Shown: positions 30,236-33,132, numbered from the stretch's first letter. The stretch: 64,000 nt of DNA from Candidatus Gastranaerophilales bacterium (GCA_944323695.1 CALUTI010000001.1:62001-126000), one strand, 5' to 3'. Made by a program: numbers and translations. The notes: generated by a model from the letters alone, not told the origin.

Positions 30236-30310
30236 GCGGGGGTAATTCAGTGGTAGAATGCCTCCTTGCCAAGGAGGATGTCGCGAGTTCGAGCCTCGTC
30301 TCCCGCTCCA
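30236..30310 (+). tRNA. tRNA-Gly (GCC)
   Basis: Acceptor stem GCGGGGG/CTCCCGC, D arm TTCAGTGGTAGAA, anticodon arm CCTCC-TTGCCAA-GGAGG with anticodon GCC, T arm CGAGTTCGAGCCTCG, discriminator T and an encoded CCA. Its 3' end is copied twice downstream (30502-30517 and 30692-30706). Confidence 0.96.
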
Positions 30311-30313
30311 TAA

Positions 30314-30342
30314 AGAAGCTCCACCATAGGTGGGGCTTTTTT
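30314..30342 (+). terminator. Terminator after tRNA-Gly
   Basis: AAGCTCCACC-ATA-GGTGGGGCTT followed by a T run. Confidence 0.8.
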
Positions 30343-30385
30343 ATGGACTGAGATAAAGGCAAGAAATCGCCAATTGCGCAGTTCG

Positions 30386-30517
30386 GCGGATTTCCGGACG
30401 GACGATGCACAAAGTGCAAGTCCGGATAGCGAGGAAATTGAGCGGAGTTGGGCCAAAGGCTCAATAGCGAAACTTTCCGAGCGTGGAGGAAATCCAAGAC
30501 AAGCCTCGTCTCCCGCT
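30386..30517 (+). mobile_element. tRNA-Gly scar 1: repeat element plus copied tRNA 3' end
   Basis: The segment from GCGGATTT (30386) to CCAAGACA (30501) is a GC-richer element with an internal hairpin TGCAC-AAA-GTGCA. A related copy lies in the leader of pilin-like gene F (61877-61766). It is followed directly by AGCCTCGTCTCCCGCT (30502-30517), an exact copy of the tRNA-Gly 3' end from the T loop to the discriminator base. This is the arrangement left by integration at a tRNA attachment site; no integrase gene remains. Confidence 0.55.
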
Positions 30518-30560
30518 AATTAAAAGACCGTAGGACTTTAGTTCTAACGGTCTTTTAATT
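30518..30560 (+). terminator. Second terminator-like palindrome in the tRNA-Gly scar
   Basis: AATTAAAAGACCGT and ACGGTCTTTTAATT pair around a 15-base loop. It follows the first copied tRNA 3' end just as a terminator follows the real tRNA. Confidence 0.65.
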
Positions 30561-30603
30561 TGTTGAGATAGTGGATTGACGAAGCCTTTTTGCGAGTTGC
30601 GCG

Positions 30604-30706
30604 AGGGAGCTGAGGCTGGAGCGCTTTTGCTATTGTGATGAAATCACATTAGCAAAACGCGAAACGCCGTTACACGCGACCGAGCAAGACACGAGCCTCG
30701 TCTCCC
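30604..30706 (+). mobile_element. tRNA-Gly scar 2: 86-bp hairpin element plus copied tRNA 3' end
   Basis: 30604-30689 aligns without gaps over 86 bases with 32997-33082 behind tRNA-Tyr (about 76 identical by eye). Its core hairpin is GCTTTTGC..TGTGAT-GAA-ATCACA..GCAAAACGC. The element ends GAGCAAGA and is followed by CGAGCCTCGTCTCCC (30692-30706), the tRNA-Gly 3' end again. Confidence 0.55.
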
Positions 30707-30831
30707 TCAAATAAATAACTCTCATCATCAAATGGACTTTTTTTATTCGGTATTATCAGACAATATTTAAAAAAATTAACAAACAGGACTTTTTGGAAAA
30801 AATCACTTAAAATAATAACAGAGGAGAATTC

Positions 30832-32601
30832 ATGAAAAAATCTAAAAAGTTTAAACATATAAAATTAATATTTGGTCTGATTGTACTTATAGTATGCACT
30901 TTTTATCTAACAATATACATAAAAAGTAATAACTACATATTTTTATACATTAATCCTGATAATAATACCAAAATTTATCCATATATAGCGAAAGCAACAA
31001 ACAAAATAAATAATATATTATTTGATGCGGCAAAACTTGTGAAAACAAACAATCCTGAATTAAAAGTTTTATATACAAACGGCTATGGATCAGGCTTTAT
31101 AAAAAATAATGAAACTTCAAGCGACCTTGATTACGGTGCAGGTGTTTATCTCGGAAAATATTTATATGACGGAAAAAATTCAGTTGAAATATCAGAAAAA
31201 CTTCTACGAGATATTGCACTCTATCAGGCAACAATTTATAGTCTTGTACAAAATAACGAACACGATTTTTACATACAAAGACTCACTAAAGAACGCATTC
31301 TGGGGATAAATAATGATGACAAAATCTATGCCCAATTTATGGCAAAATCGCTTGATACGGCTTTAAAGGGAAAACCTTACAAGATGGAAGTTGCATCCAA
31401 AATCTTCTTACTAAAGCCAAATGAAGTTGTGCTGCCGGATTACAAATTTATAAAACTCTACAGTAAAGATATCTCCTACGGTGAAAACTATCGCAAAATG
31501 CTCCGGGAACTCACAGTTACTGTAGATTATTATTTTGATCTTGTTGACAGCAAAACAAATAAAACATACCCGATATCCCTAATTGCGTCTGTTAATGACG
31601 GTTTAAGGTCATATCAGCAAGATTTGCGTTATTTTGTACCAAATGCATTTACCAGTTTGGCATCATTTAATTATGTAAAAAATATCATGCCTAATCTTGA
31701 TGATAATAGTTATTTTGATACGAGATTAATAAATTATTATCACCATTATACACTTTTATCATACGGCAACAGCAAATCATGCGGAAATCCGTTAAAAATT
31801 ATCAAGCGATTATTACAATGTACGGATGTATTAGCACCTATATTACCTAAAGATTCACTTGAACAGATTCACAAAAGTGCATACGCCGTTATAAGCAGCC
31901 CGACAGTTGCACTTTTGAATGATTATTATGTCGCAAACGAAATTCTCTACAATATAACAAAGGCAACAAGCTTATATGAAGATATGGAAAAAAATCAGGA
32001 AGTATCAAAACATATAAGTAATATGGAATATATTTTGAATGACATGATAAATGATCCGCAATTTTCATATAATGAACTTAAACCGCTGTTTGAATATCAA
32101 AGAGAAATTTTTCATTCAAAAAATAATATAACTAATTTACAGACCTTTATGAAAGGAAATTTTGCATCAGCAACACGATATATTGATGATTTGATTTATA
32201 AAAAAATGCCTGACAACAGCAAATTCAATAATTATATTATATATTTAAACAAAGTTCTTGAAAGTGCAGGGATTTATAATATAAAATTTTACAACGACAG
32301 AGACAATCATATATATGTAATGAAAGACAGCTTTTCAAAGACTTTAGATCTGAAAAATATTACTAAATTGGATATTAAAAACGGTTTTTACACAGAAGTA
32401 TCTAATTCCAAAACGGAATTAGAACTTTTGCCGGAAAAAGATTTTTATGCTGACACCAGAAGGATTTCGCATGGCTGGGTTAGGTATAATCCGACAGAAT
32501 TGCAGAATTCAATTTATAATGATATGAAAAAATACATGTTAAAAGATCGTCGCCGTTTTCATTTAAGAATAAGACCCGGAATCCAGAGAGAAAACTCTTG
32601 A
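30832..32601 (+). CDS. Large membrane-anchored protein of unknown function
   Basis: 589 residues. GAGGAG lies before ATG 30832. Basic KKSKKFKHIK is followed by one hydrophobic helix (LIFGLIVLIVCTFYLTIYI), so the protein is an inner-membrane-anchored or signal-anchored protein with a large outer domain. The rest is rich in Asn, Lys, Tyr and Ile and helical, without a motif I recognise. The tRNA array promoter overlaps its last codons. It sits between two tRNA loci with integration scars, so it may be accessory. Confidence 0.65.
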   Translation: MKKSKKFKHIKLIFGLIVLIVCTFYLTIYIKSNNYIFLYINPDNNTKIYPYIAKATNKINNILFDAAKLVKTNNPELKVLYTNGYGSGFIKNNETSSDLDYGAGVYLGKYLYDGKNSVEISEKLLRDIALYQATIYSLVQNNEHDFYIQRLTKERILGINNDDKIYAQFMAKSLDTALKGKPYKMEVASKIFLLKPNEVVLPDYKFIKLYSKDISYGENYRKMLRELTVTVDYYFDLVDSKTNKTYPISLIASVNDGLRSYQQDLRYFVPNAFTSLASFNYVKNIMPNLDDNSYFDTRLINYYHHYTLLSYGNSKSCGNPLKIIKRLLQCTDVLAPILPKDSLEQIHKSAYAVISSPTVALLNDYYVANEILYNITKATSLYEDMEKNQEVSKHISNMEYILNDMINDPQFSYNELKPLFEYQREIFHSKNNITNLQTFMKGNFASATRYIDDLIYKKMPDNSKFNNYIIYLNKVLESAGIYNIKFYNDRDNHIYVMKDSFSKTLDLKNITKLDIKNGFYTEVSNSKTELELLPEKDFYADTRRISHGWVRYNPTELQNSIYNDMKKYMLKDRRRFHLRIRPGIQRENS

Positions 32602-32626
32602 CATAAGATTTTGTTCTTAATAAAAT
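32598..32626 (+). promoter_or_regulatory. Promoter of the tRNA-Thr/Thr/Tyr cluster
   Basis: TTGACA (32598-32603), 17 bases, TAAAAT (32621-32626); the first tRNA starts 13 bases later. The -35 box overlaps the stop of the upstream gene. Confidence 0.85.
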
Positions 32627-32638
32627 AAGACATGTGAC

Positions 32639-32710
32639 GCCGGCATAGCTCAACGGTAGAGCAACGGTTTTGTAAACCGTAGGTTGTAGGTTCGATTCCT
32701 ATTGCCGGCT
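32639..32710 (+). tRNA. tRNA-Thr (TGT)
   Basis: Acceptor GCCGGCA/TGCCGGC, anticodon arm ACGGT-TTTGTAA-ACCGT, T arm with GGTTCGATTCC, discriminator T; no encoded CCA. Confidence 0.95.
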
Positions 32711-32723
32711 ATTTGCCTAAAAA

Positions 32724-32795
32724 GCCCTTGTGGCTCAGAGGTAGAGCACTCCCTTGGTAAGGGAGAGGTCACGAGTTCAAGTCTCGTCAAGGGCA
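32724..32795 (+). tRNA. tRNA-Thr (GGT)
   Basis: Acceptor GCCCTTG/CAAGGGC, anticodon arm CTCCC-TTGGTAA-GGGAG, T arm with GAGTTCAAGTCTC, discriminator A; no encoded CCA. Confidence 0.95.
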
Positions 32796-32830
32796 GATTT
32801 TAAACCTCTGAGCGAATGAAAATTAAATAT

Positions 32831-32913
32831 GGGTAGGTGCCCGAGTGGCTAAAGGGAGCAGACTGTAAATCTGCCGTCGCGAGACTACGGTGGTTCGAAT
32901 CCACCCCTGCCCA
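32831..32913 (+). tRNA. tRNA-Tyr (GTA)
   Basis: Acceptor GGGTAGG/CCTGCCC, anticodon arm GCAGA-CTGTAAA-TCTGC, a long variable arm as in class II tRNAs, discriminator A; no encoded CCA. Its 3' 16 bases recur at 33084-33099. Confidence 0.95.
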
Positions 32914-32955
32914 AATAAAACAAGGATAGATGCTTTCTATCCTTGTTTTATTTTA
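32914..32955 (+). terminator. Terminator after tRNA-Tyr
   Basis: AAAACAAGGATAGA-loop-TCTATCCTTGTTTT followed by ATTTT, a long and strong stem. Confidence 0.85.
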
Positions 32956-32996
32956 ACGGGGGATTGATGCGAAACACTTTTTATGGTTCGAGCGCG

Positions 32997-33099
32997 AGCG
33001 AGCCGAGGCTGGAGCGCTTTTGCGGTTGTGTTGAAAACACATTAGCAAAACGCGGAATGCCGTTAAACGCGAGCGAGCAAGATAATCCACCCCTGCCCA
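32997..33099 (+). mobile_element. tRNA-Tyr scar: 86-bp hairpin element plus copied tRNA 3' end
   Basis: 32997-33082 is the second copy of the 86-bp element (see 30604). Its hairpin reads TGTGTT-GAA-AACACA, so the base pair that differs from the other copy has changed on both sides. It ends GAGCAAGA and is followed by AATCCACCCCTGCCCA (33084-33099), an exact copy of the tRNA-Tyr 3' end starting in the T loop. Confidence 0.6.
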
Positions 33100-33107
33100 C
33101 CACTTTG

Positions 33108-33132
33108 AAAAGACCGCAAGGTCTTTTTTTAT
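33108..33132 (+). terminator. Terminator-like hairpin after the tRNA-Tyr scar
   Basis: AAAAGACC-GCAA-GGTCTTTTTTT. It follows the copied tRNA end as a terminator would follow a tRNA. Confidence 0.65.

Follow-up and report, generated by a model that had tools for sequence, protein, structure and literature searches.

Many tRNA genes of a Candidatus Gastranaerophilales bacterium (GCA_944323695.1; a 1.73-Mb genome, hereafter the host genome, G000) are followed by short units, each bringing its own copy of the tRNA 3' end and usually a terminator, so that the tRNA gene is rebuilt at each insertion and the old end, along with any older units, is displaced downstream. We tentatively read these units as non-autonomous mobile elements that dock at the T loops of tRNA genes, with a folded core exchanged in an integron-like manner by an enzyme acting in trans, a reading to which we give somewhat less than an even chance. 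The window, that is, the whole 64,000-nucleotide stretch analysed (CALUTI010000001.1:62001-126000), had been the subject of a sequence-only reading, which noticed further copies of the tRNA 3' end behind tRNA-Gly (two, of 16 and 15 nt) and tRNA-Tyr (one, of 16 nt). These copies are real and begin, as described, in the T loop, each preceded by an element end (CCAAGACA, GCAAGACA and GCAAGATA, respectively). The features of the two loci are as follows.

30236..30310, + strand: tRNA-Gly(gcc) (ARAGORN); insertion point after T-loop A58, between 30292 and 30293
30293..30342, + strand: Gly unit 1, left part, the unit-supplied tRNA 3' end and terminator (a later copy has another terminator)
30350..30385, + strand: Gly unit 1, inverted T-arm arm, small hairpin and T-arm 5' half (AGTTCG), ahead of the core (inverted T-arm test)
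30386..30501, + strand: Gly unit 1, type I folded core, GCGGATTTCC ... GGAAATCCAAGACA (model R2, 133.6 bits; covariation)
30502..30517, + strand: first displaced tRNA-Gly 3'-end copy, 16 nt
30518..30560, + strand: Gly unit 2, terminator-like hairpin (inverted repeat I16)
30592..30598, + strand: Gly unit 2, T-arm 5' half (GCGAGTT)
30599..30690, + strand: Gly unit 2, type II folded core (model R1, 90.5 bits; covariation)
30692..30706, + strand: second displaced tRNA-Gly 3'-end copy, 15 nt
32830..32914, + strand: tRNA-Tyr(gta); insertion point after T-loop A58, between 32898 and 32899
32899..32954, + strand: Tyr unit, left part, tRNA 3' end and terminator T1
32966..32991, + strand: Tyr unit, inverted T-arm arm, loop and T-arm 5' half ATGGTTCGA
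32992..33083, + strand: Tyr unit, type II folded core ending in GCAAGAT (model R1, 110.4 bits)
33084..33099, + strand: displaced tRNA-Tyr 3'-end copy, 16 nt
33108..33148, + strand: terminator T2 and GGATGAGATCAC, the remnant of an older Tyr unit (its core still present in sister species G009 and G012)

Most copies were said to be followed by their own terminator, and terminator-like hairpins indeed follow the first Gly copy (30518-30560) and the Tyr copy (33108-33130). The repeat that had been taken for an 86-bp element is genuine, its 91-nt core (30599-30689 vs 32992-33082) being 89% identical between the two loci, but the unit is larger, including a terminator and an inverted T-arm copy, and the other Gly unit contains a type I core. 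Further downstream, a guanidine-I riboswitch (Rfam RF00442, 81 bits, above threshold; 33525-33613, minus strand) lies upstream of a small membrane-transporter-like gene (~33156-33480, minus strand).

The analysis drew on searches and on sequence surrounding tRNAs and cores. All 42 tRNA genes of the host genome were checked for exact copies of their own 3' end (11-19 nt, within ~400 bp of the gene), and one or two such copies were found behind 11 of them: Arg tct, Asn, Gln ctg, Gly gcc, Leu cag, Leu gag, Leu taa, Lys ttt, Phe, Ser gga, and Tyr. This recurrence excludes chance for the copies in the window. The spacing is mostly ~155-200 bp, and a folded core separates most copies from their tRNA, other hairpins occupying the same layout at Phe, Gln, and Leu(taa). 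In a unit, the tRNA 3' end and terminator are followed by an inverted copy of the T arm (typically GATGAGAAC...) and often by a small hairpin; N52-GTTCGA, the core, and CAAGAC(A) come next, and then the next tRNA 3' end begins. Unrelated hairpin inserts are framed in this way too (tRNA end and inverted T-arm copy before the insert, tRNA end after it) at L017 (tRNA-Phe) and, in G010, at L164 (tRNA-Gln) and L178 (tRNA-Arg), with tandem units at two of these loci.

Behind more than 20 kinds of tRNA, the core interrupts a T-arm copy at one and the same point, between A58 and N59. Over 71 distinct tRNA-element pairs (24 tRNA labels), the 3' end carried by a unit agrees with that of its own tRNA at 12.6 of 14 positions, compared with 7.5 for permuted pairs, and none of the 300 permutations scores as high. 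The fit of the T-arm 5' half to its own tRNA is weak, although above permutation (3.48 vs 3.21 of 5). Since each piece carries a spare end of its own tRNA, new pieces can enter the gene without breaking it.

The cores are of two types in one frame (GCG...CAAGACA): type I, of ~115 nt, is a branched fold that runs from GCGGATTTCC to GGAAATCCAAGACA, and type II, of ~90 nt, is a long arm with tandem G.A motifs. What is conserved in the core is the fold, not the sequence, and the fold is under compensatory selection. In type II, 22 of the 32 pairs are doubly changed in a MAFFT alignment of 8 sequences; among 75 distinct sequences, the count is 27 of 32 pairs, with 528 doubly changed cells vs 156 in shuffles and far lower values in all slid controls. 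The 8-sequence test is the cleaner one because the 75-sequence alignment was fitted to the model. For type I, with 5 sequences, 9 of the 34 pairs show covariation. G-T pairs account for 2.1% of core pairs vs 9.5% in the tRNA stems of the same genome, and this scarcity favours folding of the DNA over that of an RNA, though indirectly, the related sequences not being independent.

Comparison of loci across sister species bears out the suggestion that old tRNA ends had been pushed downstream by later insertions, and the empty sites that were to be looked for exist. Roughly half of the congeners lack a unit at tRNA-Tyr, whereas G011, G003, G008, G009, G010, G012, G002, and the host genome have at least one unit or remnant. 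Among four close species, the Leu(cag) site is filled in the host genome only, the Asn site is empty in G008, and the Arg, Lys, Gly, and Ser loci differ in unit number or core type. Together with the 11 tRNA genes followed by their own ends, this polymorphism among siblings supports the earlier idea that very small non-autonomous elements visited repeatedly. The terminators can differ among units behind one tRNA, as at Tyr in G009 (in the order T1, T2, T1), Asn (where two differ), Lys, and Gly, which indicates that a unit usually brings its tRNA end and terminator with it.

The main rival to an integron-like exchange is passive tandem duplication of the tRNA 3' end and trailer, by slippage or short-homology recombination, with mobile cores landing independently and harmlessly in the spare T arm and no site-specific recombinase acting on the tRNA. 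We consider this account possible but unlikely. The copies at Arg(tct), Ser(gga), Leu(taa), and Leu(cag) extend into the native trailer (22-76 bp), as duplication would have it; identical or near-identical tandem units, at Arg(cct) in G016 and Gln in G010, point the same way, as do the unrelated hairpins in the shared layout at Phe, Gln, Leu(taa), and, in G010, Arg. Local duplication would not, however, supply the differing terminators of the Tyr, Asn, Lys, and Gly units, and the constancy of the A58/N59 position across so many tRNAs also speaks against it.

Insertion is precise in other contexts, too. Cores are inserted into cores exactly after CAAGACA at L177 (Arg, G008), where a type II core immediately follows a type I core, and at L111 (G029), a 94-bp tandem core array distant from tRNAs. 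In G029, a type I core is inserted in a palindromic repeat between CCTGAACTT and GTTTCAGG; 33 copies of the palindrome are empty, in the same genome, vs 16 filled. Comparison of the empty and filled copies revealed none of the target-site duplication that marks DDE MITEs, which argues against a DDE transposase. Insertion into hairpin loops is suggestive in single cases, but we do not claim it as a general rule because flank complementarity is not clearly above permutation (4.96 vs 4.75, sd 0.12; 102 distinct sites).

The check that the sequence-only reading had proposed shows the same core next to other tRNA genes in this genome and in relatives. The type II model, R1, has matches in 46 of the 59 genomes searched, and the type I model, R2, in 28 of the 59 including the host genome, with up to 36 copies; matches to the element pattern come almost only from Candidatus Gastranaerophilales/Melainabacteria or from gut and rumen genomes. 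Across genomes the cores do not lie mostly away from tRNA genes: of the 129 distinct sites for which flanks were available, 76 follow directly on the 3' side of a same-strand tRNA, compared with 1.3% of random positions within genome-contig loci, a share that is not a genome-wide rate because models trained on tRNA-linked copies enrich the set. Two additional sites are 3' of a tRNA but on the opposite strand, and one is 5' of a tRNA. The host genome taken alone is less uniform. R2 has 5 matches there and R1 has 31 at E up to 0.1; the best 9 of these 31 are tRNA-linked or in a displaced tRNA-His array, but about two thirds of the core matches, mostly weaker, are in other contexts, chiefly two other repeat families. 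Cores thus occur without tRNA ends, and tRNA docking is not their only context.

Several of these other contexts deserve mention. About a dozen host copies of a larger repeat ending in CGATAATAGTTTTTATGTAAAG (L069-L080) have a type II-like core within, and in some, CGATAATAGTTTTTATGTAAAG is inverted at the opposite end. Several host cores with locus-specific flanks (L062-L067, L050) lie right where type IV prepilin-like genes begin (AFTLAEVLITLG), and at L050 the core lies within the reading frame and adds an N-terminal extension. At L063, L064, and L065, also in the host genome, the flanks of one core repeat are swapped among loci, as if the chromosome had been rearranged by recombination between copies. 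Type II cores are also present on five viral contigs from IMG/VR (L194-L198); on L198, a provirus with a reverse transcriptase gene has a tRNA-Val(tac)-type unit at its edge.

With respect to the mechanism, three features favour strand exchange at the T loop, namely the fixed insertion point there, the restored tRNA, and the displaced end; a reaction like that of integrons is suggested by a folded site that rebuilds a T arm. We envisage that the mobile form would be circular or single-stranded, with the tRNA 3' end first and the core last. By closing N52-GTTCGA and N59-TC-N62, the two halves of the T arm, the folded core would imitate the T-arm site, and a recombinase that transfers strands would swap this mimic with the T loop of the matching tRNA. 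The logic would be that of integron cassettes, the core being attC-like and the T loop serving as attI, with the enzyme, possibly the host XerC/XerD or one from a phage or helper element, provided in trans, and the base match of the tRNA end deciding which tRNA is entered. Integron integrases recombine folded single-stranded with double-stranded sites (PMC4792948). The resemblance to integron cassettes (attI x attC) lies in the arrays beside a fixed site, in a unit that ends in a structure-conserved folded site, as the covariation indicates for the cores, and in the stacking of cores on cores; it is a similarity of principle, not homology. Unlike integrons, the units have no integron integrase and no cassette gene, and their fixed site would be any tRNA T loop; the integron GTTRRRY core is absent, the junction being CAAGACA/N59TC.

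A stricter version, an integrase-less integron-like system in which every tRNA gene would act as attI and a cassette with a matching 3' end and terminator would keep the gene alive, appears doubtful to us. Integron-like exchange in either version is weakened by the presence of native trailer within the duplicated stretch at Arg, Ser, Leu(taa), and Leu(cag), which local duplication would explain equally well, by the absence of a recombinase linked to the elements, and by offering no explanation of how a core first gained a tRNA-specific end and terminator.

We infer the integron-like step, because no enzyme was found among the four protein families examined: the full-length tyrosine recombinases of the host genome are all Xer-like, and the elements are not tracked by Y1, by TnpB, or by reverse transcriptase. 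The units contain no genes, and no integrase family or mobilising gene recurs beside the cores. From the start of the copies in the T loop, tyrosine integrases had been proposed; the A58/N59 point does fit such a site, but no full-length tyrosine recombinases other than XerC/XerD-like ones are present in the host genome, where PF00589 is represented by three proteins of ~180 aa and two that resemble Xer (as judged from length and sequence). Xer-like genes are present in 13 of the 13 genomes examined, element-free genomes included. The ~180-aa proteins, several per genome, are encoded beside hsd or polysaccharide genes (L161-L163, L372, L373) and may be phase-variation invertases; as helpers they were rejected. 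Neither kind is linked to the elements, because element-free genomes carry both. An integron integrase (intI) was not found in the PF00589 set of the host genome or in the 13 genomes examined, and no circle junction of the element was seen. A reverse transcriptase helper was rejected, the gene being absent from G008, G016, and G020, and so was the idea of a TnpB guide RNA (CAAGAC followed by a guide equal to the tRNA 3' end), TnpB (PF07282) being absent from all 13 genomes.

Gene-less folded repeats of the REP type are thought to be moved in trans (PMC8266576), and a REP-like repeat moved on folded single-stranded DNA by a Y1 transposase (RAYT/TnpA_REP or IS200/IS605-type), beside a short target and without duplication, would account for the folded core and for insertion that leaves no target duplication. 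Like REP/REPIN with RAYT (TnpA_REP) (PMC8266576, PMC3116915), the elements are short, gene-less, folded, repeated, and probably moved in trans; unlike them, they have a 90-115 nt core with internal G.A motifs, no GTAG or CGTC tag, and precise docking at tRNA T loops. Y1 genes exceed the cut-off in 20 of the 59 genomes, and a fragment beside a triple array (L312) made a Y1/RAYT helper look promising, but the gene is absent from several core-rich genomes (G000, G008, G024, and G029, each with 12-29 type II copies), Y1 genes are, with few exceptions, not flanked by cores, and TnpB is lacking as well. We therefore regard this origin as improbable.

Even less probable, in our estimation, is that the core is primarily a functional RNA, such as a trailer or terminator element of the tRNA that serves regulation or 3' processing, its mobility being secondary. 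Its RNA-like tandem G.A pairs, strong covariation, and nearly constant orientation on the tRNA strand are compatible with such a role, but its presence at the same tRNA varies between sister species, it is located behind a terminator, many copies are distant from tRNAs, and G-U pairs are scarce. An Rfam search yielded no match for the core, only tRNAs and the guanidine-I riboswitch being above threshold.

Under the Islander definition (PMC4383910), tRNA/tmRNA islands are marked by a regenerated tRNA and a displaced 3' fragment, both of which the units show; they also share with these islands insertion inside the tRNA gene near its 3' end and tandem accretion, with the displaced fragment at the far end, but differ in being ~160-210 bp long, gene-less, and integrase-less, with one core behind more than 20 kinds of tRNA. 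That the units are what deletion left of ordinary islands or prophages after integrase loss, as the sequence-only reading had allowed, is the least probable account: the regenerated tRNA and displaced fragment and the Val-type unit at the provirus edge on L198 would fit it, but the sizes are uniform, the fold is conserved and covaries under compensatory selection, copies are found in 46 of the 59 genomes, no mobilising gene recurs nearby, and none of the ~190 core copies examined belongs to an integrase-bearing long form.

Returning to T-loop docking with integron-like exchange, the choice of tRNA also has a parallel in phage Ms6, where small changes in the attP core redirect the phage to other tRNA-Ala T loops (PMC1762012). 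The T-loop attachment site and the switch of tRNA by small core changes are alike; Ms6, however, is a whole phage with its own integrase, a 26-bp core identity, and no folded core. Each part of the proposed system has precedent, and the combination was not found in the open-access literature searched.

The elements would represent the smallest class of tRNA-docking mobile element known to us, one core targeting many tRNA genes per genome, and would demonstrate the spread of a folded site by an enzyme from elsewhere. If found, the helper enzyme might prove to be a recombinase directed to T loops. Cores are found at many contig ends and therefore probably break assemblies. Docking of this kind would explain the rows of old tRNA ends that trail Gastranaerophilales tRNA genes, and the cores could seed rearrangements, a visible source of genome change in this uncultured gut lineage.
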